Part shown: positions 1 to 45,845 of the stretch, piece after piece | Numbering within the stretch: position 1 is the first letter of the stretch | How the letters are laid out: every line of letters begins with the position of its first letter | DNA from: Coemansia sp. RSA 487 | Lineage: Eukaryota; Kickxellomycota; Kickxellomycetes; Kickxellales; Kickxellaceae | Reading direction: 5' to 3' | Assembly (NCBI GenBank): GCA_027577595.1 | Contig: JANBRJ010000017.1 | Location: 124,001 to 188,000, forward strand | Length of the DNA: 64,000 bases | The notes under the pieces: generated by a model | Database searches by the model: none | Told to the model about the DNA's origin: nothing | Seen by the model: the letters and a program-made list of their open reading frames with translations, nothing else | Made by a program: the position numbers and the translations under genes

Positions 1-2
1 GG

Positions 3-365
3 ATGCGCGAGGCCATCTATTGCCACACTACGGGGCCCTCGTTCGAAACAAGAGCTGAGTGTTTTGCGCTCCGCTCGCTTGGCGCAGAGGTCATCGGAAC
101 GTCGATTGTTCCCGACATTATTGTTGCACATCACTCGGGGCTCGACGTGCTTTGTCTTGGCCTTGTCACCAATGTCGTTGCCAAGGGCGACGAACCGTGC
201 GCCGAGGAGGCTGCACGTGCTGCACTGGCTGGAACAAAGGCTCCGAAACCAAAGGACGTCGATGCAGATGATGACATCCTGGCTCGCAAGGGGTCAGTCA
301 AAAAGGGCAGCCAGCGTGCTGCTGACCTCAACCTCCTTGTAAAGCGAATGGTCGAAACTATGTGA
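3..365 (+). CDS. Purine nucleoside phosphorylase, C-terminal part (5' end outside window)
   Basis: The gene enters from the left edge already in frame, and its last 120 residues are visible. They carry the block GPSFETRAE, then a segment reading GTSIVPDIIVAHHSGL and LVTNVV, which matches the phosphate/purine-binding and C-terminal core of trimeric purine nucleoside phosphorylase (human PNP has GPSFETVAEC, STVPEVIVARHCGL and LITNKV at the same spacing). The enzyme splits purine nucleosides with phosphate in the purine salvage pathway, in the cytosol. An extra lysine- and aspartate-rich stretch (about residues 80-100 of the visible part) precedes the final helix. The true start lies outside the window; the methionine at the left edge is probably internal. 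The stop codon is only 18 bases from the left end of the Fanzor transposon, so the natural 3' region has been displaced. Confidence 0.9.
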   Translation: MREAIYCHTTGPSFETRAECFALRSLGAEVIGTSIVPDIIVAHHSGLDVLCLGLVTNVVAKGDEPCAEEAARAALAGTKAPKPKDVDADDDILARKGSVKKGSQRAADLNLLVKRMVETM

Positions 366-383
366 ATGCTGTGTTTTGCAAAA

Positions 384-489
384 CTAGTTGTGTCGAATAA
401 AAAGGATATATACGCGTCGAATGGCGAAAGGTTTGCAGTGGTGATAATGCATTTTGCGACCCAAGAAAAAGTCGTTTGCGCAGGCGTGG
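384..489 (+). repeat. Left terminal inverted repeat of the Fanzor transposon
   Basis: This 106-base arm pairs with 3007-3112 in inverted orientation. The best-conserved stretch is the AAGAAAAAGTCGTTTG core near the inner end. It lies downstream of the Fanzor gene's 3' end. Confidence 0.85.
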
Positions 490-666
490 TATATGTATCA
501 GCGCAAAACAGGAAAACAAAAATGATTAGTACCATTGTCAAAAAGCAGTCACGGGTGTTTATCTCTTCAGCTCTCATTTGAGCACCTACCTGCAAAAGGG
601 ACAGCATCCTATCTTAGAACTAGGATTTGCCGCGGCTATAACCTTGGCTGAATTTCGTGGTGGTTG
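490..666 (-). ncRNA. Candidate guide-RNA (omega/fRNA) region of the Fanzor element
   Basis: In TnpB and Fanzor systems the guide RNA is made from the 3' end of the nuclease gene and the adjoining transposon end, with the guide itself lying just outside the element. Here that would be the minus-strand stretch between the Fanzor stop (667) and the left inverted repeat, probably continuing through it to 384, with the guide in the bases just below 384. This is a positional inference; I have not shown a fold or a conserved scaffold. Confidence 0.3.
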
Positions 667-2892
667 TTATTTGTTCGTCCTCGCCGTCTTCTTTGCCGCT
701 GTCATCTTCCTTTTCTTCTTGGGCTGCTGTTCATCGGTGGTAGCAACGGCTGCAGGCTGACTGCGACAGAAGCGCTCTGGAGTCTCACCATAGTCACGAA
801 GGCCATGGAAAATATGCCTGAAGTTGAGAACCGCTGCAAGATCTCGGCTGTACATGCGAGAACGAGGATTCAAAACACCATCCACTTCCACGGGCCCCAT
901 ACATAGTTCGTTGGTGCACTTAAGGAGACCGTGGCAAAGCACTTCTTTCATCTTCTCTCGCTGGTAGGGGCGAGGGTTGGGCACTTTCAGGAACGTCTCG
1001 AGAGTGCCGGTGAGGCAGTTCGGGCAAGTCTTTGACGTTCTGAATTCGTCAATAAGATAGACTCGGCACCCTTTTTCCTTAGCATTCGCCGAAATCCAAC
1101 CCCCCGTATAGGCTCATGGTAGCGAGCCATTGGCGCACTCAAGTTACCTAAGATCACAGTGGGGTTTTCAGCGTTGCATGTCACCCGAATGCACTTTGCT
1201 AGCTGCTCATCGGCTTGTTGTTGCTTGATGTGGGCGGATTGCCGAAGCTTGCGATGAATTGGCTGAAGGTTGTTCCCATTTTTGCTGGTGGTCATGGTGT
1301 TCGTGTAGAATTTACTCAGCACTGGCCAAACAGCAGCACGTGTCCTGACATATTGCTCATATTTACCTGGCAATACTGATGTGCACGAAAAAGCAGCCAA
1401 TATAGCCTCAGCAGCCTTGATTTCGTTGCTGTCTGGGTGCTCTTTCTTGACCTTTTCCCTCAGCTTGCGGTAGTGGGTTGTCCGGGTTTCTTTAGCCTTC
1501 TGGCTCCGTGTGTATCGGAAAAGCGCTTTCTCCTCAGAGGTGCTCCCATCCGTCATGCCAAAGACGATGTCCTGGCGACCTGGATCCATGAAAATCGGAT
1601 TTTCCATGTTGGCCAGCTGCTCTGGCAAAAGCTCGTGGGTATATGTGAACTCACCCGACTTCTCTTCTCCTGGCTTTTCTCGCTTCCTGGGCTTCTTGGG
1701 CTTCTTGGGCTGGTCCTCTGGCAATGAGCCAGTAGCTGTGTTCTCAGCTGGAGCCATCTGCCCACTTCCGCTGGCCTCGATGGAAGTATTTTCTTCAACA
1801 TCCCTTTTCTTCGCCTTCCAGCTGCTTTTTTCTTTGGCCTTTGGGGTCTTTTTGATCACAGACGCTGCCACGCCATCAGTCTGTATTGTGCCATAGAATC
1901 TGAAGCTATTTCTTATCCGTAGCACCCTCGATTTTTCGTTGAGAAATTTATACCAATAGATTTCAATGGGGGGACTTCGCGTTATAGCTCCAGCCCATTA
2001 TGCTTTTACATAATACCATGGTGTCAATCTCGATGTGCATTGGCACAAACGACTTCCGCAATGGGAAACATTGAAAAGATCTGTGGTTGTTCGTCTCAAG
2101 AAGCACTGCCAAGTAACAGAATGCTTTGAAGTGCTTTTTTGGATGCGCCTTAATATCGTAATAAATTCCTTCCTCCTCAAACTTGTAGTCGTTGTCGTAT
2201 GCTGTCAACACAGGTTCAAGCATGTCCCCAATGTTTTTGCCACCCACAGTGATAACCGGAAGAACGGCGTTGCGGTGCTTTATCGCCTCTTTCAACTCCA
2301 GCCCAGGTTTCCAAATTCGGTCTTCATACACTTCCTTTATCTCATTCGTTGTTCTGTCCTTCATTGCCTCCTCAAGGTCCCTCTTGTGCTCCCGAGTTTT
2401 CAGCAGAGCATTTACTGCACGCCGAAGATACTGACCAAACTTGGTCTGTATATTATTCACGTATGCAGTGTAAATTCTTGCTGCCTCGAACTGTGCTGTC
2501 TGGTTTGGGTTGGCTATATCAAACCTTGTGATGCCAGCAGCCTCCTTGTACGCATCTAAATGCTTACATATAACCCTCTTGTATTCCTGGATTTCAGCCT
2601 TGACATTCAGCCTGGCTTTCCGCTTAGTGAGGTGCAGGAATACCTCACCAAAAAACCTCTTTTCCAGGTACATAGAAGGATCAAACTGCTTTTGAGTAGC
2701 CAGCTCGTGGACAAATATCCAACGAGCCAGCCCATATGTGTGTGCAGAGGCTGCGTTCGCCACTACGACATAGTCGTTTACCTTGGCAATGTCATTTCTG
2801 TCATTCACCAGAGATTTTAGGGGGCACTTTATAACGCGTGTCCCTGTATCCAATATATCCTCATTGTCCATTGCAGATGGATGAGCAAGCAA
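667..2892 (-). pseudogene. Fanzor (TnpB-like RNA-guided nuclease) gene with two frameshifts
   Basis: Three consecutive minus-strand reading segments form one protein of about 740 residues. The N-terminal helical part is 2892-1963, the middle 1960-987, and the C-terminal part runs to the stop at 667. The middle part has the TDGV block and the RuvC-I motif MDPGRQDIVFGM (Asp codon near 1584-1586). RuvC-II reads VILGNLSAPMARYHEPIRG, followed by LIDEFRTSKTCPNC (Glu codon 1045-1047). The zinc-finger half NC...LCHG...C and RuvC-III YSRDLAAVLNF (Asp codon 841-843) follow. The usual TnpB glutamate position is occupied by Gly (LGN), with the Glu of IDEF probably replacing it, as described for Fanzors. 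One frame break sits in a G6 run at 1968-1973; the other is near 1060-1070, just before LIDEF. No catalytic residue is lost, so the decay is young, or the breaks are assembly errors. I considered plain IS607-type TnpB, but the length and motif spacing fit eukaryotic Fanzor1 better. Confidence 0.82.
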
Positions 2893-3006
2893 GAGAAGGT
2901 AACTAATATAATGTGTTGAAAGGTGTATTTGGTTTTACTAATAGAAATAAAATGTCAAAGGAAAGCCAAGGAGAAACAAAAGCGAAAAGGAAAAACAAAC
3001 AACTTG

Positions 3007-3112
3007 CCATGCCTGCACAAACGACTTTTTCTTGGAACGTAAAATGTGTTATCACCACCGCAAACCTTTCACCATTCAACGTGCATACATCCTTCTTATT
3101 TGACGCAATTAG
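3007..3112 (-). repeat. Right terminal inverted repeat of the Fanzor transposon
   Basis: Inverted partner of 384-489. It lies upstream of the Fanzor start codon, and its outer tip is about 190 bases before the PGK start. Confidence 0.85.
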
Positions 3113-3301
3113 CATCAACCCTCGTCCTAAAAGTGATGGCAGCAAGATAACAGCGAAAACTGATCAGAGCTTGCATTTTGAATACGAGCGAGATCCATCC
3201 TTTTCTTTTCTTCTTCTTCTTCTTTGTTTGCCGCAAGATATCTCCCACCTTTACTTCTTTCTCAGTCCACACCAAATCAAACAGAAACCTTAAAGCAACA
3301 A

Positions 3302-4561
3302 ATGACCATCTCCAACAAGCTATCGATCAAGGACATCGACGTCAAGGGCAAGCGTGTTCTTGTTCGCGTCGACTTCAATGTCCCACAGGACAAGGAGCTG
3401 AAGATCACTAACAACGCGCGTATTGCCGCAGCGTTGCCAACTATCAAGTACCTGATCGAACAAGGTGCCGCAGGTGTTGTTCTGATGAGCCACCTGGGTC
3501 GTCCCAACGGACAAGCTGTCGCCAAGTACTCGCTCAAGCCAGTTGCCGCCGAGCTGGAAACGCTCTTGGGAAAGCCCGTCACTTTCCTCAACGACTGTGT
3601 TGGCACCGAGGTCGAAAACGCGTGCGCTAGCCTGTCCGGTGGCAAGGTAATTCTTCTGGAGAATCTGCGCTTCCACGCCGAGGAAGAGGGTTCGTCTAAG
3701 GATGCTGCAGGCAATAAGGTCAAGGCCGACGCTTCCAAAGTCAAGGAGTTCCGCGAATCGCTGACCAAGCTAGGTGACATCTACGTCAACGATGCATTTG
3801 GCACTGCGCACCGCGCGCACTCATCGATGGTTGGCGTTGAGCTTCCGGTCCGTGCTGCCGGGTTCCTGATGCAAAAGGAGCTCGAGTACTTTGGTAAGGT
3901 CACCGAGAATCCGGCGCGGCCGTACCTGGCGATCCTTGGAGGCGCCAAAGTGTCGGACAAGATCAAGCTGATCGACAACCTTCTGGACAAGGTCAACATG
4001 ATGATTGTTACTGGAGGCATGGCGTACACTTTCCATAAAACGCTCGTGGACATGAAGATCGGCGGGTCGCTATACGATGCCAGTGGCGCCAAAATCGTCA
4101 ACGACCTTGTTGCCAAGGCCAAGAATAACAACGTCGAGTTTGTGCTTCCTATTGACTTTGTCGCTGCCGACGATTTCTCTCCCACCGCCAATACCAAGCT
4201 TGCCACCGTCGAGGGCGGCATCGAGGATGGCTGGCAGGGCTTGGACATCGGTCCCAAGTCTGTCAAGGTGTTTTCCGGTCTGATCGACCGCGCCAAAACC
4301 ATCGTGTGGAATGGCCCGTGCGGTGTCTTTGAGTTTGAAAAGTTCGCTGACGGTACCAACAAGACCATGGACGCCATCATCGAAGCACACGATAAGAACG
4401 GCGCAACCACAATCATTGGCGGCGGAGACTCGGCCACCGCTGCTGCTAACCGCAATGTCACTGACAAGTTCTCGCACGTGTCAACTGGTGGTGGTGCCTC
4501 GCTTGAGCTGCTCGAGGGCAAGGAACTGCCTGGCGTCACTGCGCTTTCCAACAAGCAGTAA
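3302..4561 (+). CDS. PGK1: Phosphoglycerate kinase
   Basis: A 419-residue protein, close to the usual 416. Phosphoglycerate kinase transfers phosphate from 1,3-bisphosphoglycerate to ADP in glycolysis, in the cytosol. Diagnostic blocks are [10 protein letters not shown] near the N terminus, [37 protein letters not shown], the hinge [26 protein letters not shown] and the nucleotide loop TIIGGGDSA. The reading frame is open from 3224, but the start at 3302 gives the canonical [19 protein letters not shown] start. No intron is present. The short upstream region has long CTT pyrimidine runs (3198-3222), as in highly expressed fungal promoters. The Fanzor transposon ends only about 190 bases upstream, so the promoter is short or partly inside the transposon. 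Confidence 0.98.
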
Positions 4562-4678
4562 TTAGTATATTTTTATTGTTGTTGAGACGTATGAACACTT
4601 CTTTTCCATCTTTCAATAATTAGTTTGTTGGAGTATTTGTTTAGTCGAATTAAGCTATTTAAATAAGGGAGGGTTGGG

Positions 4679-6064
4679 CTACCGATCAAAACGAGACCGT
4701 CGGTGACTGTTATCTGATCGCCGTTTGCTGTCCCCTTCAGGGCTTTTGCTGCTACGCCTACCACTGCCATGTCTGTGGCGGCCTTTGCGGTCCATGCTGT
4801 CCCATTGCGAGCTGGTGTGGCCTCGATCTCTGTCTCGATCTGCGTTATGCTCATAATGTCTCTCTGAGCGAGCTGAATCATGGCGCCTTTTGCCACGATC
4901 CCTCGAGTCCTTAGTATTAGAAGCTGTGTTCTGTGGAGCCTCAAACACAAAATCAAAAGCCTGGGCTCCCATGTTCCGGTCCTCTCCGCCCGAGAACACG
5001 TCGTCCCTGTACTTTCGTCTCATCTGTAGCTTGCCCTGCCTTCCTCCACCATCACCAACCAAATCATCAGCACCGGATCTGGCCCTAACCCACTTGCCAT
5101 TCAACCGGCTCACGCTCTGCGAGAAATCCACATGGATTCTGCGGTCATCGATAAGCACGTTGTCCATTTTGAAGTACGCTTCCTCGCACGCCTCCTTGGT
5201 CTCAAACTCGATGAATGCATAGCCTAAAGAATCGCCAGTGCCATTGTCCCTTACAATTTCACACGAAACTATCTTGCCAAACCGAGCAAAAATTGTTTCC
5301 AGGTCATCGTCCCGTGTGATTGCATTGAGCTTGCACACGAAAAGCACGGTATCCGGAGGCTTCACATCGGCGTATGGGAGATCGCCAATCATCTCCAGCG
5401 TAAGGGCTTGTGCCTTGGCCTCTTGTTCGCGCCTCCGCTTCTCCGCCATTTCTCTGTCTTCCGCCACCTCTATGCTGTCGCCAGCCTCTATTCGCATGAT
5501 CTCTTCTTGCTCTGCGGTAGGTAGTAAAGGCGAATGTGGAATTGAAGGAAATCCTGGCGGATCGGGGAACGGGTCATGAAGGACAATTGTGTGGCGTACA
5601 AGGATGTCGCTCAGAGGGCGACCCCCTTCGTCACAGATACTTGCATCCATCTTGTCCAAAGTATCCCAGCCCTCAGCAATCTCGCCAAATACCGCATGCT
5701 TATTGTCCAAGTAGTCAAGCCCATTTGACAGAGTTATAAAAAATTGGCTCCCTGACACACCCCTTGCATCATCGTCAAGAACAACCATCGATACTGTTCC
5801 ACGCCTATGTTTTCGTGAAGGAAGCATTTCTGGTGGGAAGTACTTTGATCCGCCCAAAACTCCAAAGACTGACTCTCCACCTTGTCCAGTCCCCGTCGGG
5901 TCGCCCATTTGCACCACAAATCCCGTTTCCACATGGTGCACAATCGTAAAGTTGTAGTACTTTAGCTTACATAATTTTAGAAAATTTTTAGTTGTCAGCG
6001 GCGCCGAGTCAGTGTACAGATCGATGACCAAGTCGCCAACGGATGTTTCTAGGAGCACACTCAT
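4679..6064 (-). CDS. PPIL4-type nuclear cyclophilin with RNA-recognition motif
   Basis: This 461-residue protein has three parts. Residues 1-165 form a cyclophilin-type peptidyl-prolyl isomerase domain ([18 protein letters not shown] start, [21 protein letters not shown]). Residues 240-318 form an RNA-recognition motif with RNP2 LFVCKLN and RNP1 LGYAFIEF. The C-terminal tail is rich in Arg, Ser, Asp and His. The order cyclophilin-RRM-charged tail is that of PPIL4 (fungal Cyp6), a nuclear protein tied to the spliceosome and transcription. The isomerase pocket departs from the classic cyclophilin A residues, as in PPIL4, so catalytic activity is uncertain. The gene has no intron and converges with PGK; the 3' ends are about 118 bases apart. 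Confidence 0.93.
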
Positions 6065-6727
6065 TTATACTTATATAAAATATCTACAATAAACAACAGA
6101 AAACATGATTATCACACAAGTACAAGCTTGTTTTTATGTACCTGTGACCGCAAGCTTTTTTATTTAGCTTTTTCATTTGGAAATGATGCTATTAGGGGAC
6201 TTTTTTTACAATGTTTTGCATGATTCATACTAGTTCCGCATTGGAACTACTCCGTTATTCCACTCTTAGCATTATGCGTATGCTATATTAGAATTTGAAT
6301 CGCTGGTCAAGTTTATATTAAAGATATGTGAGTTTTCTGACATAATCGAAAGCTTGGTTTACAGTTGTTAACTTTTTCTTCTTTGTCGTGTAGCATCGCT
6401 ACAATACAATGCATTGTGTTAAAAATTCGAGGCCGAATGTACAACTCGCTACGTTTCCTTCTTTTCTAGCTGAATAGGTCTATTTTTATAGAATATAAAC
6501 AATATTTCCAAAAATAAGAATAGAACAGCCATTCTTGGCATATGCAATCAAGAATAATATTAGCGATATCAGCTATATATTTTTAGAATTGTAGAAATGC
6601 CGATACACTCAGTTTCTTTTACATATAATGCTCTCTTTCATAGCTCTGAATTATAGATTTTTCGTTATTAGCCTCGATATCCTTTGCTGTCCTTTTACTC
6701 CTTGCTTGCTTCTTTCTAGATTATAGC
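6065..6727. other. Intergenic, AT-rich
   Basis: No coding signal was found. It holds the upstream region of the PPIL4-type gene and of the decayed ABC transporter; pyrimidine-rich bases precede 6728. Confidence 0.5.
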
Positions 6728-9700
6728 ATGGAGCTGATAGATTTCTCAAAGTTTGCTACGCAGGCACGCACTTTGAAGGATGCACCTTTTTATCTAACAA
6801 CCGACATTTCTCATATATTGATAGCAGTTATTATGAGTTGTCGCGTTAGAAAAACAACAGCAGTGATTAGTCAAGTCAGTTCTCTAGCTCAGTGCTGCTA
6901 CGCTATGCTTACTGCCCTTGCTATCATTCAATACTCAAGCTAGACCGAATTCCATTTCCCACTGTCTGTTGCTGTATTACCCTTGCTTACATTACAGCCT
7001 GCTGCTTATTATCCGTTCCAACTGACCAACCTAGTTGGAATGTACAGATCGTTGAGTGGTCATATCAGTGCCGATATCTGGCACCAACTGCGCTATGCCT
7101 TGATGCACTTATATCTGTTGCTCACAAACCTCGATACACAGGGCCAAAGCATTGTAAACGACTTAAAGCGGCTTGTTTTTTATACGCAAGAACGCCGTCT
7201 ACTTTCAATCCAAAAGCGTCGCAATGTCGAGTTCGATGATCTTGATGAACTTCCCGAACGCATGCGTCTCAGCTCAGCCGCCAAAGAATTTAAATACGAT
7301 GTCAACGAGTCCTTCTTTGCGATCCGTGCAATATTTCGGTCTACCTGGCGCACTATACTCCCTATTTATATCCTCAGATCTTTGCTTAGTCTTGTCAATG
7401 TGGGTTCATCGGTTTTAAACAGCCGCATTCTGTATATAATTGACTTGCCTTCAGAACACAGCTGGTATGAAGGCTATATTATTGTCATCATGGCATTTTT
7501 TGTCAATATCCTTAAAGAGCAGTTTAGTCGGATAAATTGGCTCCTAAATGAATAGTCAGACCGTATTATCAAAGCTGTTCAACTCGAACTGCTTCGTCTT
7601 CCACTTACAAACTCCGGCCTCCGGAAAGAACATATATGAAGGCCAGAGATGCAGCATACTTTCTGCAGCGCGACTTTTGGAATTTAGAGCATGTGATTGA
7701 AGAAGTGGCTGGTGCCATCGGTACTCTTGTCCTTATTTATAGACAGATCGGCTGGTTAGCATTTGTGCCTGTAGCAGTGTCCATAGCAATCAATATGGCT
7801 GCATGGGTGATAAAAACGCTGTTTGGTGAAAGCTACGAGCGGAAAGCGGATACAAATAATGATTATGATGTGGATGTCGAAGAGATCCACCACAATATAA
7901 AGTTCATCAAGATGTTTGGCTGGGAGCGCATGTATATGGATCCGGGGCTACAAAAACATTGGAAGGATGTGGCAGACATGAGAGATCTTCCATAGTATGC
8001 ACCGATTGTTCAAATTATTTGGGCAGCATTTAGCCTTCTTGGAATTTTTTCGACTCAATTTTCTGTTTATATCGCCATTTACCTCTGTACAGTTGGCAAT
8101 TCAGGCTCTACAGCGATTGTTTCCACTGCTGACATGTTTCAGCTTGATATACTGATGCGCAATCTAATTAGTATGCTTACTGCCCTCAAATGGCACCTAT
8201 CGACATTATAAAGCTTTGTCCTGAAAAAGGATGAGATTGTTCTCAAGGATATTTCTTTTAATGCTAAGGATGGAGAACTTGTTACGGTTGTCGGAAATAC
8301 GGACTCTGGCAAATAATTGCTCCTTTTGTCTATTTGTGGAGAGGTCGAGATGACAAAAGGCTCCGGTGCCGTTTTTGGCTCTGTTGCGCTCATGGAGCAG
8401 ACTCCGTGGATTATGAACGACACTGTTCGCGAGAACACTCTATTTGGTCGCGAGTACGACAAAGAACACTACAGACGTGTTGTAGAGGCGTGTGCTCTGG
8501 CAGATGACATAAGAATCTGGACCAACGGTGATAAAACTGTTATTGGTGAGCAAGGAATAAACATCTCCGGTGGTCAGAGAGCACGTCTGGCGCTTGCTCG
8601 TACTGTGTATTCAAAGGCCGACATCTACGTTCTAGACGATCCGTTGTCTGCAGTTGACGCTCATGTAAAGCGTCATATCCTAGATAATGTCATAATGGGC
8701 TCTGGGCTGCTCAGTGGCAAGATTCGCGTTGTATCTGTCAACGCCAAAAGCCTCTTGCCCTACTTTGACAAAGTGGTAAGGCTAAACAGTGGAAACTCAT
8801 CAGTAACGCAACAGAACCCCCAGAAATACTTACCAGCCACAAATATCATCTCATCAAAAGGCAATGAAAACAAACCCAAAGATCCTGGGTCTATTGCTTC
8901 ATCAGAAAACGTGTCTGAATCTCCAACTGGTGAATGTGCTGATAATCAAGAATCAGACTCAGACTCGGAAGAAAATTCCAGCAACAAGGAGGATTCAAAT
9001 CCAAAGATTCACGAATGGAGCAAATGGGACAACATGAAATATGTTTTAAAAACTTGTGGACCTACTTCATTGGTAATGCTTGCATCGGCTGGGTTTTTCA
9101 GGCCAATAATGAAATATATTGTTGATGGATACAAATTGGATTTGCTAAAATCTAGCAAAAAAGAAGGCGACTGTGCAAGCAATGATGCAGTATTAAAATA
9201 CTTGCGCATGAACATGCTAGGCAAAATTATACACATGACACTTGGTACGATTGAATCGTTTATTATGCAGATACTATCCGCTGAACACTTAGAAATTTGT
9301 CTAAAAAGTATGTTTATTGACAGCCTGATGCATGCACCATTATCCTTCTTTGATAGCACCACAAGCATGGACTTGTCATCTGCATATGCAGACAGCATCG
9401 AATCAATGTCGAATGGAATCCCAAGCTTCCTCATGACTGAAATTTCCAACATCTTAGGGATCCTGTTGTCATTATATAGAGTTACATGCAATGCACCACT
9501 GTTGCTGCTAGTGGTTCTATTTTTGAGTTTGTATAGCAATGAGTGCACATCGCAGTTTACCCCGATACGTGATTCATTAGTTGAACTCAGGAGAAAGGCG
9601 TATATCTCAATGCGCAAAATAAGGAGTATTATTTCTGACGGGAAACGACTTATTCGCCTGTTAAATGTCGAGCCATATTTTACAAAGCTGTATGTGGATG

Positions 9701-35595: not shown

Positions 35596-36687
35596 TTTCT
35601 GATTAAAGGTTGGTTTGCAATTTTTTTTGCAGAATATTAAAATGGGTTGAACGGGTGTGTCGATTTAGTTGTAATATGCTTAGAATGTAACGGGTTATCA
35701 GTCGTGTAAACCGCATATACGCGCGAGCATACCGCGGTATATCCTTTATATACCTACCTTATTCTTGCCTTTTCAGTAGCGGATGTGTATTCCCCTCAAA
35801 CAAATACATGATATTTAAAGTATTCACTAATAATAGGCACCATATACTTGATTTGACTTGGCTTTAGAATGTGGACATTTCTGTATATCCCCAGGATGTA
35901 AAGTAGGAGCGCTTTGGGGGTGTGATATTTCTGCTGCATGTGTATTGTTGCGTGCGTGTTATACTCAACATTTATCTTTTGAACAAACAAGGACAAACAA
36001 AAACGCTATGGCTTGACATTGGAAAAACTAGCTTGTCTTGTTTTGTCCACATACAACAGATGAAATATTGTTTCTTTAGAGAATTCTTACCTTGGTAGGA
36101 AATCTTGCTAATGACTTCAAGCATTTTGCATGCATCTGCATTAATTATTTTTGTATAGGATTCGGATGTACTCACTCGCTTGCCTTAACATTCAAGTCAG
36201 CTTGTCACAGTCACGGCTACAAGAATGGAATTATTCAGAATATGCAGTGCAGCCGGCTTGCCAATATTCTCAAATATGAACCTCATACTTTAAGTAGTAT
36301 TGTTTAGACACTTCATACTCATCGACATATCCTTTAGAGCTCTGTATACTGGTGGTAAAATAAATTGAACAAAGAGCTTAATATCCAAAGGATGAACTTG
36401 TCAGGGCCAAATCCTCATTGTGAAGGGATTGCTGGTAGCTCATTTTCATGATTTTTATGGTTTATATCTATTCAAAACAAAGCAAAGCTGTAAAAAGACA
36501 AGAGATTAAAGAAACGACTATCCTTTTGGCATGCCCATGAGCGTATGTAGTTATCAACGTTTGCCTATTACTCTTATCGAGTATTAAATTGTCTGTCCTA
36601 TCTGTCGTTGCCCAGCAATGATAGCAACTCCTGTAGACCCCACATGGTTCAACATTGTCAAACTATTAACAAGGAGAAGCAAAAACA
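35596..36687. other. AT-rich intergenic DNA
   Basis: Contains the promoter of microprotein gene a; otherwise no gene is seen. Two overlapping open frames of about 66 codons near 35800-36175 look random. Confidence 0.4.
35743..35752 (-). promoter_or_regulatory. TATA box of microprotein gene a
   Basis: Minus-strand GTATATAAAGG. The palindrome ATACCGCGGTAT lies just downstream at about 35730-35741. Confidence 0.5.
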
Positions 36688-36900
36688 TTAACCCTTACCG
36701 CGTAGTTTGTCAAAAAGTGAACGATTCTGTTTCTTAATCACATAATCTTCCCTACTTACCGCTGTTTGCACCATTCCGGGTTTATAACTGTTGCTGGAAT
36801 CGTCTTTCTTTTTGCCATTTGGATGTGACTTAGCAACAAATGCGATGTGTTCATTTCTTCTAGATGGATCACTATTTGTGCCACTATTGGCACTTGACAT
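36688..36900 (-). CDS. Microprotein b: charged 70-aa protein
   Basis: Starts MSSANSGTNSDPSRRNE and is rich in Lys, Ser, Asn and Asp. A TATA box (GGATATATAAAGC, 37048-37059, minus strand) lies about 150 bases upstream. The end LFDKLRGKG is followed directly by the stop, but a donor-like GTAAGG overlaps the last codons and an acceptor-like TTGTTAATAG lies about 40 bases on, so the protein may end differently after splicing. The start resembles microprotein d (MSSSNDGTKASP). Function unknown. Confidence 0.5.
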   Translation of the reverse strand: MSSANSGTNSDPSRRNEHIAFVAKSHPNGKKKDDSSNSYKPGMVQTAVSREDYVIKKQNRSLFDKLRGKG

Positions 36901-37899
36901 TGCTGATTAGGTATCGGTTTTGTATTATTGGCAATAGTTGCCTATAAAAGCTTTGAGAAATATGATTATAAATGCCAGTTTGTCCGCGTAAAATGCAAGT
37001 TGTGGATTTGCCTGAGAACATGGTGGAGCAAACACTGCTGGACCCTGCTTTATATATCCAACTTTTCTACGTCAGTCATAGCAATAGTTTAATTGACTGA
37101 ATGATTATTTAAAACCGCTGGAAATAAATAGTGTATCTATTTTTATACCATATAGGTGAGTGAGTCGCAAATATACACTATTGTGCGAATCTTGCCGATG
37201 AATTGAAGCTACTATAATTATAAACGTTTAAAAACAAGGTCACCTGGGATACTAGCAGGTACGTATTTCTAAGTTTAGGACATGCATTCACTCTAAACTC
37301 GTACTTTCTATTTTAGCAGCATTGAACTATCAATACATGCTCCTCAGTCAGGGTGAAATGATATGTTCAAGTCTTATTATAAAACATCTGACATGGTGAG
37401 CACGCTTTTTTATTCAGCTTCTATTTTTGGCATTCACTATTTGTATCCGATTTAGCCAAATATACGTGCCACATCAACAGCCACAAACAATTCAATTACA
37501 TGTATGACATAAGGCTGTTTCCTTTTTGCATGAATTTTCCACTCTTTGTTGCTTGCATGAGTCATCTCTAAAGTCTCGTTTCTTATTTCGCAATATGCTA
37601 AGGAAATGTGAGTATTACTTGTACAAGGATGAAACCACACATTGCTTTGTAAATTCCACTAGCCTTTACAATACATCAGAATTTTACTCGCCTTGGTGAT
37701 ATTTTGTAATATACATATATTATATAATTGAAAGAAAATATAAACCATTTGTCACATTTACGCGCTTATATGTAATGTAATTCTCCTTAAAGTCTTTACA
37801 AAGAGTAGCTAGATACTGGTGATACAAATAGCCAAATATGTGCTACCGCGAGAAATGCTAATGAGTCATGCTAAACTTAAAGGGGTTTTGTTTGACAGG
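36901..37899. other. AT-rich intergenic DNA
   Basis: Promoter of microprotein gene b and about 800 bases without recognisable coding sequence. Confidence 0.4.
37048..37059 (-). promoter_or_regulatory. TATA box of microprotein gene b
   Basis: Minus-strand GGATATATAAAGC, nearly identical to the boxes of genes g and h. Confidence 0.5.
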
Positions 37900-38091
37900 C
37901 TATTTACTAATAGTGCCAGTAGTTAACCAGCGATACACCAATTTTTGTTTCTTTTGGTTTGCTAAGGCTTGTTGATTTTCTAAGGCTTGACGCTGCTCTT
38001 CTAAGGCTTGACGTCTTTGTTTCTCACGCAATCTCGCTCTTTCCTTTTTTTTATCTAACTTTTTTTGGGTACTATTAGGTTTACCAGCCAT
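37900..38091 (-). CDS. Microprotein c: 63-aa Lys/Gln-rich helix with internal repeat
   Basis: Starts MAGKPNSTQKKLDKKKER. Residues 27-47 contain a repeated QALEEQRQALENQQALANQ pattern, mirrored in the DNA as tandem copies of TTCTAAGGCTTGACG (about 37978-38014). The sequence predicts one long charged helix. A TATA box on the minus strand (GATATATAAGC, 38239-38248) lies about 150 bases upstream. Function unknown. Confidence 0.5.
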   Translation of the reverse strand: MAGKPNSTQKKLDKKKERARLREKQRRQALEEQRQALENQQALANQKKQKLVYRWLTTGTISK

Positions 38092-39183
38092 TGGCTAATA
38101 AATATTGGTTTGATTTGTCGATGCTAGATAATATGTGAGATCTGATAGAGTATGCTTGTAGGGGAATATTTTTATATGTAAATAGAAAGAAAACTGATAT
38201 ATAAAGAATGCACTATTCAATAACTACTGAACAGAAGCTTATATATCTAGTTTTAACCTGACTGCCATGCAGTTGGGTTACATGCATGTTAAAAATACAC
38301 ACCATGGAATATTTTGATGCCTCTATTTTTAAATTCTATTTGAAACGCATATATCATATTGACACGGGAACTAATAGGCAGCTCAATTGGTTGCAAACTT
38401 TACTCCGAATATGTGGTATAATTGATATTTGCATTTCAGTCAGCGGAATTAGAGTATATTCAAGATATATTCCGCAGCATATGACAAACGTAGCCTTAAT
38501 TTTCTTTAAAAATGTGTTCCATTTAATAAAACATGCAAATTATATAGACAGCTTTTTATATTACAGCAGCACTTGTGCTTTGTAGGGTTTGGAGCTGGTT
38601 CTCTTACACCAGTGTGTCATTGCACTGACGCTAGATTTGCTAATCTTACAGTTCTGTGCATCCACTAAAACACGATATATAACAATAATTTACTTCTTTA
38701 AAGTTTTGATTTTCTGGTTTAGCTCCATCATATTATTTTTTACTTTATGTCTATAACGTATCTCTATTCAATATCAAATGGCCACCATCATTATCAGACT
38801 GTTGTACATAGAGCTTTAGCGGCTATAAAAACCAATGTTTTGTTTGAATATAATCAAAGGATTTTTAGGTCCGTTTTAAAAAACTCCTGTGAAATACTAA
38901 CAATGTGATAATGATCGGCATGCGAGTTGCATGGTGAGTCACAATCACAGGTTTAATTACTGTAGTGTTTTGTATCGGTACAAAAGCCAGATTGTTCATG
39001 GAAAATAAAGTTAAGGAACTTTAGTTCCGTCAAGGCTTTTATTTGTAACAAACAATTATTGTGAAAATCTGATACAATTGAATTTGACAATCAACAGTAA
39101 CATTTACAAATGCTATACTCAATAGGTATATCAAAATTTATTATATTTAGTTTTTAGTCTGCTGTCTCTCTGCTTCCCACTTT
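38092..39183. other. AT-rich DNA between microprotein genes c and d
   Basis: Holds overlapping opposite TATA boxes near 38.2 kb, a 99-codon plus-strand frame (38286-38585) that I doubt, and a degenerate short repeat at about 38800-38901 sharing a CTATAAAAACCA core with repeats near 45.5 and 45.9 kb. Confidence 0.4.
38239..38248 (-). promoter_or_regulatory. TATA box of microprotein gene c
   Basis: Minus-strand GATATATAAGC. A second box, GATATATAAAG on the plus strand at about 38193-38203, overlaps this promoter and points the other way; no convincing gene follows it. Confidence 0.4.
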
Positions 39184-39744
39184 TCATTTTAGCTTGTTGT
39201 GCTTCCCTTTTGCTTTTTTTCTTTTTTCGTATTCATCTTTCTCCACTTCCTTATTGAGGCGTCATAGTATTACTGTGATACGAAATCTAATTACCGGATG
39301 TATGTTTACCACTATTTAACAGCATGCCATGTCATCACAGATAGATTGTGACGAATCGAGCATGGACCTGGGATGGATAACAAGGAGTATTCAGATGATG
39401 TTTTATCTTTTATTTCCTTTCCATAAAAACCAATGAAATAAAAATAAATCCCTCCATTTTCTCAAAGGCAATGTCCAAGGAATGTTGCCCTTTTATATGT
39501 AACAGAGAGAGCCGTTACATATAGTGCACTATTACAATGTCCACAACCAGTGATTGCCCCAACCCATCTGTATGGAAATCAGCCCTGCATATGACAACAC
39601 ACTAGCGTGACATAGATAGACTTTTCTCCTCTGGTTTCGGTCTTCAGTTTTTATAATATACTTTTATTCATATTAAAATTACTTTGTTTTACCTGGTTTT
39701 CCTTGATTAGGTGAAGCTTTTGTGCCATCATTAGAACTAGACAT
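39184..39744 (-). CDS. Microprotein d, possibly spliced across a mobile-element insertion
   Basis: The unspliced frame, 39744-39679, gives 21 residues, MSSSNDGTKASPNQGKPGKTK. Its last codons overlap a good donor, CCAG/GTAAAA at 39693/39692. If spliced to an acceptor at about 39237, the protein would continue as a charged tail (EYEKRKKAKGKHNKLK) and end at 39184. The putative intron contains the 133-bp LTR-like element with its nested passenger; without them it would be only about 47 bases, short for this genome. A TATA box (ACATATAAAGC) lies at 39841-39850. The start resembles microprotein b. Which version is real cannot be decided here. Confidence 0.35.
39274..39677 (+). mobile_element. 133-bp LTR-like element, copy 1, interrupted by a nested element
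   Basis: Begins TGTGATACGAAATC and ends TTCATATTAAA, with perfect 5-bp target duplications ATTAC on both sides (39269-39273 and 39678-39682). Without the insert at 39347-39612 and its duplicated TAGAT it is 133 bases, the same as copies 2 and 3. The 5-bp duplication and the TG start suggest a solo LTR-like relic; the right end is not the usual CA. Very similar to the other copies, so recent. Family not determined. Confidence 0.65.
39347..39612 (+). mobile_element. Nested solo-LTR-like element, 266 bp (TG...CA, 5-bp target duplication)
   Basis: Starts TGTGACG and ends CGTGACA, flanked by TAGAT on both sides (39342-39346 and 39613-39617). It sits inside copy 1 of the 133-bp family; uninterrupted copies show the empty site. 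The TG...CA ends and 5-bp duplication are typical of a solo LTR. It contains an inverted motif TATATGTAAC/GTTACATATA (about 39495-39525). A related, older relic lies at about 44028-44281. No internal retroelement genes are present. Confidence 0.7.
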
Positions 39745-39841
39745 TTTTAAATATAAAGTTGGCTAAAACTGCAATTAACATATGCTTGTTATAATGTTTT
39801 TGTTGCAAGAAAAAGCGCAAAATAAGCCCAATAGAACTACG

Positions 39842-39850
39842 CTTTATATG
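39842..39850 (-). promoter_or_regulatory. TATA box of microprotein gene d
   Basis: Minus-strand GGACATATAAAGC, about 100 bases upstream of the ATG. Confidence 0.45.
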
Positions 39851-40531
39851 TCCAGAATCCTCCCCTTGCTAGCCAAACAATATTCTTATTTGTGCAATGT
39901 GAACAACATTTTGAAACAAATAATGTGCTTTTTTGTTCTATTATGGTATTTTTGGATTACATGGAATTGTATATTGCAAATATAGACTGAATGTGGATAC
40001 GATATTTATAAACTAAGCTTCACGTAAAAAGGTACACATTTGATAGCCTATAAATATTGCTGTTGATGTAATAATAGATATATTTTTGGCTGTAGAGTAT
40101 GCTCATGTTCTTAGCTAATTTACAAAAATGTGAACATAATATTTTCTGCTTTGCATCTACGCTTGTAGTCTGAACTAGTTCTTTTGATAGGGCTCCATCT
40201 TGCTGGCTGATCATTACATTGCTAATTGTGTCTGTACAGTGTTCATTAATTATTTTTTCATTTTATTTCTTGTTTTATTACTTTAATTTGCTTCAACAGG
40301 AAACTATTTTATTCTTTCTTCAAAACATTTACCAACAATGACACATAGTGTAGCCATTGAAAGCTTCAACGCTCAATAGTTGCAGTTTCTATGGCTCATA
40401 TATTTGCAGCTGGTAATGCTTCATTGTTGGTCTGCTTGTGCATAAGCCTATTAAATATGCTGAGCCACAAAGGTAAGAAGCTTGATTTACAAATTGTATG
40501 TGAGACAGGTATGTACCATCTTTCTATTTGC
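39851..40531. other. AT-rich intergenic DNA
   Basis: No convincing gene. Open frames here are AT-rich and hydrophobic, as expected by chance. Confidence 0.4.
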
Positions 40532-40696
40532 TTAGTCTTCACGCTGCTGCCCCATCTTCTTTTTTTCTCTGTCCGCTTTTCTTTGTTCTTCTCTTTTCCT
40601 CTTTTCTGCTGCTATTTTATTTGCTTTAACCTCTTCAGGGCTGAAAACTGTCCCATTACGAGCAGTTTGAGAACCATTTTTCCTTTGTCGAGGCAT
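40532..40696 (-). CDS. Microprotein e: 54-aa highly charged protein
   Basis: Starts MPRQRKNGSQTARNG and continues into a Lys/Arg/Glu helix ending MGQQRED. The frame is open to 40756, but the TATA box GTATATAAAGTAC at 40762-40773 (minus strand) lies just upstream of that point, so the first ATG after it that gives the MPRQRK start is preferred. Function unknown; same design as its neighbours. Confidence 0.5.
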   Translation of the reverse strand: MPRQRKNGSQTARNGTVFSPEEVKANKIAAEKRKREEQRKADREKKKMGQQRED

Positions 40697-40761
40697 TTTG
40701 AGTATGTATTGGTTTAGAATTGCTAGTGGTAAAAAATAGCAATTATGCCATAGCAAAACAG

Positions 40762-40773
40762 TACTTTATATAC
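40762..40773 (-). promoter_or_regulatory. TATA box of microprotein gene e
   Basis: Minus-strand GAGTATATAAAGTAC, about 70 bases upstream of the chosen ATG. Confidence 0.45.
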
Positions 40774-41454
40774 TCAGCCTTTGCTTCTTTTCAATCTTTC
40801 AATATTGTTAATTGCACAATATAGAGATAGAGCACAGAAACAGATATGATTTATTATTAGTTTATTATATTTTGGATTCCTTGGGTTCATGATCTTAAAA
40901 TGTGTAATGTTGGATGTGGACACAATCCTAATATTGAGCGTGCTTTAATAAGAAGCATATTTAAAATTAACATCTATGAATAGATATTGCCACCTAGTAT
41001 ATAATGTACATACAATATTACATTGAGATATGCAAGCTTGGTTTATTTATAATTTTGTGCATTATTATTAAATAATATTCAAATTATAGGATTCAGCATC
41101 CAACAAATGTAATCTGAATCTTTTTGATCACAAGCACAGCAATATTTTGGAGCGGGTTTCAAGATCTGTTTCACAGCTAGTCAGGTTTATACGTGCCATA
41201 TGCTTCTTTGTATAAATGTTTAGGTAAACATATCGCCGTTGCTGCTCTTTTAAGAATTGGTATGAATATATAGACGCCAAAAAAGCATAATGCTTTAATT
41301 ACTTTCACTAGCTAAGAATGGCTCAAAATAATAAAGCAAAGTGTGCACTTCAAAGTTAATTATGAAGGCAAGACAAAAACAGCATCAGTGTTTTTCAGGT
41401 GTCGCTGTCACCGCTAATCCTAACGGTTCAATCTTCTACAGGTACCATTTTCTT
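40774..41454. other. AT-rich intergenic DNA
   Basis: A stretch near 41090-41160 resembles DNA near 46430-46500 (a CTGAATCTT...GGTCACAGG-like block), probably from an old duplication. No gene is seen. Confidence 0.35.
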
Positions 41455-41736
41455 CTATTTGAATTGTTGCATGTTTTGCTCTCGACTCCATTTCTTTTGT
41501 TCCTGTATCCATTTTTTCCTATCCTGAGCCCTTCTTTTCTCCTCCCGATTTTTTTGGAATTTATCCCATGCTTTTTGTTTCTCTTGATAATCTCGTGCTT
41601 TTTCTTCCCTTATTTGTTCTTCTTCATTCCTTTTTATCTCTTCCTTTCTCAATTTCTCATCCTCTTTTTTGCTATACATCTTCATAGCATCTTTATCAAA
41701 CGTCACTCTTTTACTACTACCAGAATTTTTACGCAT
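41455..41736 (-). CDS. Microprotein f: 93-aa charged helix with an RVxF-like motif
   Basis: Starts MRKNSGSSKRVTFDKDA; residues 9-14 (KRVTFD) fit the protein phosphatase 1 docking motif at nearly the same place as in microprotein a. The remainder is one long helix in which over half of the residues are Lys, Arg, Glu, Asp or Gln. A TATA-like box (TTAATATAAAAGG, about 41819-41832, minus strand) lies about 90 bases upstream. No homologue is recognised. Confidence 0.55.
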   Translation of the reverse strand: MRKNSGSSKRVTFDKDAMKMYSKKEDEKLRKEEIKRNEEEQIREEKARDYQEKQKAWDKFQKNREEKRRAQDRKKWIQEQKKWSREQNMQQFK

Positions 41737-42737
41737 TTTAAACTATGACCTGGGTTTAAAAGTAGCTGCTAAAGATGCTTGGTAAAGCTCTGAAAATATA
41801 TGATTGTAGCCGTGAATTACCTTTTATATTAAACAAATGTTGATGCTGTGAGAGAAAAGTGCCAAGAAACAAGCATTGCTGCAAATTCTTTTTATATACA
41901 AAATTCGTGATGTCTATTATTCTTGCATTTCAATGAAGAGTGTGCCATACGAAATGTATACAGAAACAGAAAATATTTCTCGCCATATCCACTTGTGCTA
42001 TTTATGTATAGTGTGTGCGTTTCAGCTCCAAATAAGAGTAGTATCAGATATATATGATTCATTTTATACAACTATATTGGTGTGATAATGCAAATAGTCC
42101 TGATAAAGAACGTCTGGTTATTTTCTTCTGTTCACAATCCAGCGTGTCTGGAATTTCTATAGCAGTGTAAACAAAAGAGCGATTTTAATAGTGTATTCCT
42201 CATTACATTTCTTTATTGATTTAGCCACTTTAGCTTTCACGTCATTTTATACCTGACTTCATATATTTAGCATTTTTAAACTTTCATTCGTAGCCAGGCA
42301 ACACATTTCCCAGTACAGATCAATTAGTTCTACGCATAGTTTATTGATATGATTTCAAATTAGGGCTACAAATCTTTGATTTTTGGGTTAATGGATAGGA
42401 GAATATTAGAATACTGTGGTGCAATATCCATTTGAGCTCACCTAGGATGATATCTTAAACTATAAAAATATAAAAGTAGGGAGGATTTGGCCCACCAAAT
42501 CTGCTTCACTATATTAAATCAACTTTTGGTGATTGAAGAGCACTGAAAGTTGTAATACATTTGCACAATCAAACCATAGAACGCGGGATTTCTACCAATA
42601 TTCAGTGGCCAGAGGGAGATGAATACTTGCTTTCAGCAATGCTCACTGAAGGTTGGAGCGGATGCCAAGGGAGATTTTGGTGAACCATAGAACCCCCTAT
42701 ATTTTATTATCTTTTGTAAAGTTTCCAGGTTAAAACC
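41737..42737. other. AT-rich intergenic DNA
   Basis: Promoter of gene f and about 900 bases with no gene. A block of more mixed composition near 42480-42700 has no open frame. Confidence 0.4.
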
Positions 42738-42870
42738 TTTAATATGAATAAAAGTATATTATAAAAACTGAAGACCGAACCCAGAGGAGAAAAGTCCATC
42801 TATCTGTGATGACATGGCATGCTGTTAAATAGTGGTAAACATACATCCGGTAATTAGATTTCGTATCACA
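42738..42870 (-). mobile_element. 133-bp LTR-like element, copy 2
   Basis: Minus-strand copy of the family at 39274-39677, exactly 133 bases, flanked by AAACC (plus strand) on both sides at 42733-42737 and 42871-42875. Almost identical to copies 1 and 3, so recently inserted. Confidence 0.7.
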
Positions 42871-42929
42871 AAACCAATCTCCATATATAATAATTGACCA
42901 TATTAAGTACAAATTTTATTTGATAATTT

Positions 42930-43290
42930 TAATAAAGCGTGAGTGGTGTATATTAACATGCTTTCAAAATAATATAGCATGTGTATCTTATTTCCTTTTC
43001 TTACTTGTTTGAATCACCGAAACATGTTTTCAAACTTATTATTTCATTGAACCAATATCTAACTATAAAGTAATATCCATTCTTGGTGCAGCTATCAAAT
43101 CAATTGTTTTCTGTTACATAATATGTGAGAATTTCTGACCACTTGATTTATTTTCAGGTATTGGTGGATAAATTGTTTGCGGCTCCTGCAATTTGAAACT
43201 CTACTGAATCCTAATCAAAATTAGCAGTTATTTTTCTCTGTAGCATTAGTACCGGCGGTACTGCCGAGCATCATCATCTGTTCTACATCC
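42930..43290. repeat. Direct repeat A of a segmental duplication
   Basis: Matches about 44318-44685 at high identity, including long identical runs such as ATTTCTGACCACTTGATTTA. Copy B lies downstream of the stop of microprotein gene h, so copy A may be the relic 3' flank of a further copy of that gene. Confidence 0.75.
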
Positions 43291-43305
43291 ACGATATTTG
43301 TGCCA

Positions 43306-43433
43306 TGTGACACAAAATCTAATTACCGGATTTATTTTTACCATTATCTAACAGTATGTCACGTCAACACAAGTTGGGCATGTCTTTTCCTTTTTGCGAG
43401 TCCCTTCTTCAGTTTTGATAATATATATATATA
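43306..43433 (+). mobile_element. Diverged copy of the 133-bp LTR-like family
   Basis: Starts TGTGACACAAAATCTAATTACCGG and ends in an AT repeat. It shares the family's order of blocks but is clearly older than the other three; no target duplication is evident. Confidence 0.45.
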
Positions 43434-43436
43434 TAC

Positions 43437-43850
43437 AAAAATAAATGTGTATAATACAAAAATATCACACAAAAGCAAATATAAACAATATCAGTTTCTA
43501 AAAGTTATATATAACACAAATATTAATAGACACAATATAAATAATGGATATATAAAGCGCTGTTCAGCCACACATTTTTTCCACTTTTCTTTAAAATTGC
43601 TGCATCTACAACCGAGTCATATTCATCTTTATTCAAGCACAACACAGGTAATTATAAACTAGGTTTTTCAACTGAACTGGGCAGATTTCAAGCCGGCAAA
43701 AACATTACATTTGGTTATAAAATCAAATGACAATTACGAACCAATACTTACATATTAGCATATTGAACAAGCTTGGTAACGAAGTAGGCGTAACAAGTTG
43801 AGCAAGTAAATAAAAGCAAAAGCCAGGAGAAATGCCGCTATTTGGAAAAA
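43437..43850 (+). repeat. Left arm of an inverted duplication (promoter and leader of gene g)
   Basis: Pairs with about 44798-45240 on the other strand. The conserved part covers DNA upstream of the TATA box, the box itself, the leader and the first codons. Confidence 0.75.
43549..43557 (+). promoter_or_regulatory. TATA box of microprotein gene g
   Basis: ATGGATATATAAAGCGC. The same string occurs in gene h. A donor-like CACAG/GTAATT at about 43648, conserved in gene h, suggests an intron in the long leader. Confidence 0.55.
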
Positions 43851-44038
43851 ACAGGCAGAGTACCGAGGATAAAGCGAGAGCAAAAGAAGAGAAGCGGCTT
43901 AATAAAATAAGGAAGCAGCATGAAGCGGAAATCGTGAGGCAGCAGCGTAACGACCCGAAGTGGCAGGATAATGTAGAACAAGCGAGGACATATTATAACT
44001 CGTCAGTTGCTGCGAATAGAATGGTACTACCACGCTAG
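43832..44038 (+). CDS. Microprotein g: 68-aa charged protein
   Basis: Starts MPLFGKNRQSTEDKARAKEE, followed by a Lys/Arg/Glu/Gln helix and the tail YYNSSVAANRMVLPR. The first codons (MxLFGKxR) are shared with gene h, which lies inverted about 0.7 kb away. The last three or four codons and the stop fall in an old LTR-like relic that begins near 44028, so the present C terminus may have been captured from that insertion. Function unknown. Confidence 0.55.
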   Translation: MPLFGKNRQSTEDKARAKEEKRLNKIRKQHEAEIVRQQRNDPKWQDNVEQARTYYNSSVAANRMVLPR

Positions 44039-44281
44039 TGTGCTGCCATATGAAAGGCTGATCCTTTCAAATGGTTGAGGAGCTACTTATTGTGGACATT
44101 GCAATAGTGTATTTACGCAACAGCTCTCCGTTACATATAAAGAGCAACATTTCCTCGGACATCGCCTTTCTCGAAAAGGGATGGATTTTTACTTGTTTAT
44201 TCTGTTAGCTAGTTGAATAAAAGTAAATGTATCTCTTTATTCCCTGTTATCCATCCCGGGTCCCTATTCGTGTCGTCGCAA
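44028..44281 (-). mobile_element. Older solo-LTR-like relic related to the nested 266-bp element
   Basis: On the minus strand it shares with 39347-39612 the blocks GGGATGGATAACA, CAATGTCC, TATATGTAAC and CACACTAGCGTG in the same order. It is more diverged, and no target duplication is visible. Confidence 0.55.
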
Positions 44282-44317
44282 TAATTGATCATATGAATTA
44301 CAGATATTATTTAATGG

Positions 44318-44685
44318 ATTTAATGAAGCATAGGTGGTATATGTTAACATGCTTTCAAAATAATATAGCATGTGTATCTTATTTCCTTTTCTTACTTGTT
44401 TGAATCACCGAAACATGTTTTCAAACTTATTATTTCATTGAACCAATATCTAACTATAAAGTAATATCCATTCTTGGTGCAGCTATCAAATCAATTGTTT
44501 TCTGTTACATAATATGTGAGAATTTCTGACCACTTGATTTATTTTCAGGTATTGGTGGATAAATTGTTTGCGACTCCTGCAATTTGAAGTTCTACTGAAT
44601 CCTAATCAAAATTAGCAGTTATTTTTTCCCTGTAGCATTAGCGCTGTGGGCATCCCGAGTCACATCAGCTGCTCTACTTCCACGC
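44318..44685. repeat. Direct repeat B of a segmental duplication
   Basis: High-identity partner of 42930-43290, in the same orientation. It covers the 3' flank of microprotein gene h. Confidence 0.75.
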
Positions 44686-44726
44686 TCTTCCGCGAACATG
44701 ATACAATAACCCTTTCCCTCTTGCTT

Positions 44727-44816
44727 CTACCTTGCAAGGTCACTCTCCTCTTTCTTCTCCTGACGCCTCCTCTCTTCCTCCCTACGCTGCTTCCTGCTTT
44801 TTCCAAACAATCTCAT
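44727..44816 (-). CDS. Microprotein h: 29-aa charged paralogue of microprotein g
   Basis: Reads MRLFGKSRKQRREEERR and onward, ending ESDLAR. The promoter (TATA at 45121-45128, minus strand), leader and start context match gene g closely, but the coding sequence diverges after a few codons and is shorter. It may be a degraded copy or a genuinely variable protein. Confidence 0.45.
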   Translation of the reverse strand: MRLFGKSRKQRREEERRRQEKKEESDLAR

Positions 44817-45843: not shown

Positions 45844-45845
45844 AT

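Follow-up and report, generated by a model that had tools for sequence, protein, structure and literature searches.

A decayed Fanzor1 element of Coemansia sp. RSA 487 and its transposon family, in which the nuclease rather than the adjoining transposase appears to have been under selection

A decayed gene for a Fanzor nuclease, enclosed by long inverted repeats in a fungal genome, raises the question of what kind of mobile element carries it, whether that element is whole, and what the nuclease may have done for it. The gene lies in a stretch of 64,000 nucleotides of Coemansia sp. RSA 487 (contig JANBRJ010000017.1, positions 124,001 to 188,000), here called the window, in which inverted arms of 106 nt at 384-489 and 3007-3112 are 84% complementary and three long open frames stand between them on the minus strand. 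A preliminary description had presented this locus as a complete-looking transposon that consists of a Fanzor gene, 106-bp inverted ends and no transposase. The arms are as it described them and recur in other copies, and between the arms of the window copy there is indeed no transposase; the claims about completeness, about the boundaries and about the family fared differently, as set out below.

All three frame segments match the Fanzor1 of Parasitella parasitica (PpFz1) in the PDB (E 9e-44, 1e-22 and 7e-24) and, more weakly, the Spizellomyces Fanzor1 (SpuFz1), which bears out the proposed Fanzor identity and narrows it to Fanzor1; a fungal host is in keeping with the Parasitella match. The C-terminal segment lies just above the cut-off of the Pfam model Cas12f1-like_TNB (E 4e-6, 27.3 bits, cut-off 26.3). 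Homology to Fanzor1 thus extends over the N-terminal, RuvC and TNB parts, and the RuvC aspartate, the alternative glutamate beside the zinc ribbon and the aspartate of the RD motif are all present. These acidic positions and five zinc-ribbon cysteines can still be read in a minus-strand gene whose decay had been noticed; it is broken by two single-base frameshifts. The LIDEFRTS glutamate and the SRDLAAVLN aspartate are presumably E541 and D606 of SpuFz1 in the numbering that we assume for it, and we take the PKKKRK stretch to resemble a classical nuclear localisation signal. The catalytic residue set of Fanzors is given in PMC10432273. PpFz1 (PDB 9cf0-9cf3; PMC11423790) is the best PDB match and has the same RuvC motifs and zinc ribbon, but about 106 residues between its RuvC matches (chain 987-1092) are shrunk to about 7 here. 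In the PDB alignment, query residues 236-244 span chain 986-1093 and no FRI-like insertion is seen; the stretch 987-1092 of PpFz1 is presumably the FRI domain. Chance open frames are ruled out by the Pfam TNB and PDB Fanzor1 matches, and introns in place of the frameshifts are ruled out by a majority frame of 20 copies that is open throughout. An AlphaFold model of five aligned copies was discarded (pLDDT 31, pTM 0.18).

The ends of the element were located from its relatives. The tips found in other copies read C[A/T]GTGTTTTGCAAAAC, with variants, mostly adjoin TA or TG, and lie about 15 bp beyond the arms of the preliminary description, which had let its boundaries stand or fall with the ends of other copies; the claim that the element ends at 384 and 3112 therefore fails. 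Because other copies end at this motif beside TA or TG, the left tip of the window copy is placed at 369. On the right side similarity ends at 3112, ~16 bp short of the full tip, so that 3112 is a truncation and not an element end. Judged by this comparison, 384 is internal to the element. In longer relatives the part from window position ~3000 to the right terminal inverted repeat (TIR) is larger by ~1.2 to 3.7 kb and includes a DDE transposase. The window copy has its deletion junction in common with the copy L020, and another junction is common to L035 and L043. With an internal deletion and a lost right tip, the window copy is not complete, and the two tips and own transposase of a complete autonomous transposon are not found together in it. 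The Fanzor gene could nevertheless be intact if its frameshifts were sequencing or assembly errors; each changes a single base within or next to a homopolymer run, and many indels of other copies are also of 1-2 nt. We regard this as improbable, given that a copy with many stops and indels (L015) exists, and the truncated right tip and the absent transposase would stand in any case. The element has as neighbours, on one side, the end of a gene that matches the phosphorylase superfamily PNP_UDP_1 and, on the other, a phosphoglycerate kinase gene. Elsewhere in the window, G+C is 33-36% over the 10 kb of 36001-46000 against about 48-50% in the preceding 6 kb.

Table 1. Features of the Fanzor1 element in the window (window coordinates)
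Feature	Position	Strand	Remarks
Predicted guide (flanking host DNA)	350..366	-	From position and by analogy with Fanzor1 guides (as reported in PMC10711439)
Insertion-site dinucleotide, left side	367..368		TG here; TG or TA in 49/57 left ends; 3' end of the predicted omegaRNA scaffold
Predicted omegaRNA scaffold	367..606	-	RNA sense 606 to 367; from covariation
Predicted closing stem, 3' arm (site dinucleotide and TIR tip)	367..380	-	From covariation
Left TIR, true tip CTGTGTTTTGCAAAAC	369..489		Arm of the preliminary description begins 15 bp inside
Predicted closing stem, 5' arm (inverted near-copy of the TIR tip)	591..606	-	From covariation
Fanzor1 gene	667..2871	-	ATG 2869-2871, stop 667-669; single-base frameshifts near 1973 and 1075
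PKKKRK basic stretch, NLS-like	706..723	-	C-terminal; in 5/5 aligned copies
RuvC-III aspartate (SRDLAAVLN)	841..843	-	SpuFz1 alignment
Zinc ribbon (TNB) cysteines, CPNC ... C ... C ... C	901..1026	-	Five cysteines
Glutamate of LIDEFRTS	1045..1047	-	Aligned with LLDEYKTS of SpuFz1
RuvC-I aspartate (MDPGRQD)	1584..1586	-	PpFz1/SpuFz1 alignment
Deletion junction	2995..3010		About 3.7 kb of L003 (Gypsy fragment and transposase) absent here
Right TIR, truncated	3007..3112		Last ~16 bp of the tip missing after 3112

A search of the host genome (17.8 Mb, 184 contigs), as the preliminary description had proposed, uncovered a multi-copy family, with tips elsewhere than at 384 and 3112. The element query matched 93 times at the 40 places scored among 211 candidates, and a 110-nt TIR query gave 239 first-look candidates, 40 of them scored. 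Copies L003 to L008 were completed with flanking stretches, L003 being joined with L021. The longest copies reach about 6.4 kb (the L003 element spans 1486-7924) and are arranged in the order left TIR, Fanzor (minus), Ty3/Gypsy protease/RT fragment (plus), DDE transposase (minus) and right TIR. In L003, Pfam identifies DDE_3 (E 3.5e-19) and RVT_1 (E 6.9e-32), and the D-to-E spacing counted there is 34 residues (DD34E); the Gypsy protease matches, read in L008, are under the curated Pfam cut-off. DDE_3 with DD34E, characteristic of Tc1/mariner (IS630) elements, is thus present in L003 and absent from the window copy, and the family has the terminal inverted repeats of that group. Lack of a transposase is therefore wrong as a family trait, the longer relatives carrying one in decayed form. 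The Gypsy fragment, at about 5018-7071 of the oriented L003 and L021, recurs as the same part in L004-L008 and L127; it is fused to the transposase C-terminally and was amplified together with the element. Copies L002, L009 and L011, of about 4 kb, have no Gypsy part and an incomplete transposase; the window copy has neither Gypsy part nor transposase. The transposase was studied over its DDE part (237-298 aa). When all 132 candidates of a 237-residue DDE query were scored, only C19 and C81 were stop-free over at least 220 residues, C19 (L003) over all 237 and C81 over 17-237, and both frames enter the Gypsy fragment directly past WSKVK. An intact source of transposase may exist elsewhere.

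In the open-access literature we found no paper on selection within Fanzor families, no comparison of Fanzor and transposase within the same copies, and no covariation support for a stem of target-site duplication (TSD) and tip. One preprint reportedly deals with RNA-guided nucleases and insertion sequences in plasmids. PMC3627910 already reports Fanzor1 genes within Tc1/mariner elements, elements with TA sites that carry Fanzor1 only, and Fanzor ORFs that stayed intact over long times. SPu-1 of Spizellomyces punctatus, the organism of SpuFz1, resembles the present family in its Fanzor1-only elements, TIRs, TA sites (here beside part of the tips) and many copies, with 17 full-length copies, 9 of them intact, as reported (PMC3627910, PMC10432273); its TIRs are given there as 33 bp against about 110 bp here, the longer relatives here retain a transposase, and the proteins are only distantly alike. 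In PGv-1 and PUl-1, a Fanzor1 adjoins a Mariner-like transposase (PMC3627910), but PGv-1 is described there with an additional GIY-YIG nuclease, and in the present family the transposase has degenerated and is linked to a Gypsy fragment. CMe-1A is an old Fanzor1 family, described as non-autonomous, with some copies intact, and the authors of that study argued for a function from the long-lived intact ORFs (PMC3627910); the difference is that here the copies supply internal neutral controls of their own in their transposase and Gypsy stretches.

The majority Fanzor frame of 20 aligned copies has 734 codons and no stop; each copy is 4-8% off the majority. Seven of the 20 copies are without stop or frameshift over the part covered, four of them at full length (L003, L005, L006 and, with a 9-codon in-frame deletion, L014); L011 is out of frame over its first ~20 residues, and L017 and L019 cover the gene in part. 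Eight Fanzor stops were observed, half of them in L015; a neutral fall of the observed substitutions would have produced 57.9. The median pairwise dN/dS is 0.285 for Fanzor (190 pairs), compared with 0.65 for the transposase (36 pairs) and 0.63 for the Gypsy RT (14 pairs). Parsimony-informative differences fall at codon position 3 in 125/224 cases in Fanzor against 23/66 in the transposase of the same ten copies (Fisher p 0.003), and in 77/129 against 11/32 in the Gypsy RT of the same six copies (p 0.016). A larger set, in which eight loci were added to give 18 transposase rows, many of them partial, gave 51/164 for the transposase against 221/449 for the 20 Fanzor copies (p 7e-5). Singletons behave differently, with 176/482 at position 3 in the 20 Fanzor copies (p 0.077 against one third), 173/436 in the ten matched copies (p 0.003) and 66/204 in the transposase. 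Since shared differences concentrate at position 3 only in Fanzor, Fanzor was selected while the transposase drifted, and since singletons are nearly flat over codon positions, most resident Fanzor copies are now decaying. These patterns of substitution suggest to us that Fanzor was under selection during the spread of the family, when the adjoining transposase already evolved neutrally, and that most resident copies decayed afterwards.

The same constraint could arise in an ordinary passenger of a Tc1/mariner family that is moved by autonomous relatives, if the source lineages happened to be Fanzor-intact and no guided retention took place, and the near-neutral singleton changes in Fanzor would suit such a passenger. 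Yet sources kept intact for other reasons should keep the transposase too, and in the very same copies the codon-position patterns of the transposase and the Gypsy stretch are flat at similar depth; the copies, moreover, each differ from the majority to the extent given above. We therefore think this alternative rather unlikely and prefer selection on Fanzor itself.

A guide RNA had been expected between the Fanzor stop and the left end, and covariation is what supports it. Across 37 left ends, the block 591-606, 230 nt inside, is the pairing partner of the tip and of the dinucleotide just outside it. The pair 370/603 is T-A in 21 ends, A-T in 8, A-A in 6, C-A and G-A in one each and never T-T (p 1.3e-4), the strongest association of the tip among 240 other variable columns (next best 0.006). 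Over 13 stem pairs, 93.6% of 481 cells are paired and 10 cells are changed on both sides, whereas slid versions of the stem are 31-69% paired. The observed values of paired cells, double changes and covariation score were reached in 0/500 shuffles; the other two of the five covariation measures were unremarkable (84 and 77 of 500). Among 6761 column pairs, 370/603 has rank 4 by corrected mutual information and rank 1 when only column pairs at least 80% pairing-compatible are considered. In a second set of 18 left ends from 20 fetched regions, 201/227 cells pair, and 370/603 is T-A in 10, A-A in 5, A-T in 2 and T-T in none, with p 0.15 for this set alone and p 2e-5 over all 55 left ends. A tree of the 55 left ends places 8 changes at the inner site and 16 at the tip. 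The rows that change together are separated by few supported branches, and on this sparsely supported tree no independent pairs run in the opposite direction. The pair 368/605, which takes in the insertion site, is formed in 34/37 ends if wobble is counted, with A.C on the plus strand in 11/37. The wobble cases fit an RNA of the minus strand.

The inner block resembles the tip sequence, and it could be an inverted remnant of the TIR tip that is gene-converted or used by the transposase, a matter of DNA and not of an RNA stem; gene conversion would also yield identical co-changes. This explanation seems doubtful to us, given that the target-derived dinucleotide pairs too and that its wobble is of the kind allowed in minus-strand RNA. 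TIR and TSD are, in addition, reported as parts of Fanzor1 guide RNA scaffolds: in the reRNA of the ascovirus SfAV Fanzor1, both are predicted within the scaffold, there from small-RNA data and a predicted fold (PMC10711439), here from covariation. The comparison of left ends thus supports an omegaRNA on the minus strand that is predicted to begin at about 606, or further upstream, and to end at 367, and 613-666 may be part of its 5' portion. As its closing stem would take in the site dinucleotide and the TIR tip, the guide would be the host DNA left of 367, and Fanzor1 guides are reported to comprise about 15 nt beyond the duplicated site (PMC10711439). The proposed scaffold is far longer than that of PpFz1, reported as the smallest known (PMC11423790).

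RNAalifold, applied unaided to the 37 left ends, did not return the proposed stem and gave a competing outer helix between columns 34-39 and 358-363 (-8.33 kcal/mol, with a covariation term of -0.03) that crosses it and may be an alternative fold. Rfam had no match at E up to 1 in window positions 1-4000. Divergence among 11 Fanzor-bearing copies is 0.105 in the inner block (586-612), 0.069 in the spacer (613-666) and 0.153 in the middle; the variable middle fits a report that the region between first stem loop and guide varies among Fanzor1 RNAs and is perhaps unconstrained (PMC11423790). Six MITEs of ~1 kb gave 0.189, 0.128 and 0.141 for inner block, spacer and middle, which is not clearly lower, and functional MITEs that would carry only the guide RNA are unsupported, the omega region of these six (0.14) comparing with 0.15 in their own Fanzor remnant. 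Between the Fanzor stop and the stem block there are one to three 15-nt palindromic units like ATCCTAGTTCTAGGA (A1 columns 1-48, around window 613-626 and upstream).

The flanks were read toward the element from 123 tips that passed a fuzzy tip match, 120 of them used; the set omits one L018 tip and both C83 tips of L073, 20 short right ends and four further ends received their side by manual assignment, and the 20 short right ends were counted irrespective of the inner block in their element. A stands at -3 in 35/47 right flanks against 18/57 left flanks (p 1.4e-5), and AT at -3,-2 in 29/47 against 17/57. The A-T-R of the right flanks fits the TAM of PpFz1, reported as ATN (PMC11423790). In MITEs without the inner stem block (12 elements; 9 usable right and 7 usable left ends), A is at -3 in 7/9 right and 3/7 left flanks (p 0.30). 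As these MITEs share the asymmetry, it was rejected as proof of guided retention, and it would equally suit the passenger explanation; the bias may reflect a transposase preference that the TAM followed, or a shorter RNA may suffice. The insertion site is TA in 19 and TG in 30 of 57 left ends, and TA in 29 and TG in 10 of 47 right ends; in the 12 MITEs without the inner block, TG:TA is 2:5 on the left and 8:1 on the right. TG beside the tip is not accounted for by a TA-duplicating transposase. The base adjoining the tip (A or G) is side- and subfamily-specific, as if partly inherited with the element and not renewed at each insertion. A MITE subfamily of ~560 bp (L048, L051, L053 and L069-L077) consists of the left ~185 bp followed by the right ~380 bp and lacks the inner stem block.

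The Fanzor protein query also finds a second multi-copy Fanzor1 family in this genome, about 40% identical to the first. The six loci that were fetched (L121-L126; G000 C113, C101, C54, C23, C66 and C81) each hold one uninterrupted long frame of 763-816 codons, counted whatever the start codon; across 743 codons their proteins are 85-90% identical, and codon position 3 has a share of 0.538. A terminal inverted repeat was not apparent in the three copies of this second family that were checked.

Taken as a whole, we consider it probable that the element in the window is a dead deletion copy, with Fanzor as its sole gene, of a Tc1/mariner-type family (DD34E, presumably TA-inserting) that carries Fanzor1 and is present in many copies. 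The sequences show one ancestral open Fanzor frame, with Fanzor and not the adjoining transposase selected during the spread of the family; covariation supports a minus-strand omegaRNA, the closing stem of which would include the insertion-site dinucleotide and the TIR tip. We infer that the Fanzor-omegaRNA complex of intact copies would recognise an A-T-N TAM on the Fanzor-upstream side and cut the empty target site after excision or on the homologue, which would favour retention or copying of the element. Because cutting would aid retention or copying, elements with a working Fanzor would be favoured even when their own transposase is dead, and such elements would be moved by transposase supplied in trans. 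In the window copy itself, guided retention would have been lost. More tentatively, and as a possibility that we would not put at even chances, the family may be a case in which selection kept the RNA-guided nuclease and not the transposase, the cutting of empty sites spreads or retains transposase-dead elements, and the target duplication is part of the guide-RNA stem. This family is a natural experiment on what Fanzor does for eukaryotic transposons, with dozens of copies in which Fanzor appears selected and the adjoining transposase not. It offers MITEs with and without the guide-RNA region, flanks that can be set against the TAM, and a stem that can be mutated.
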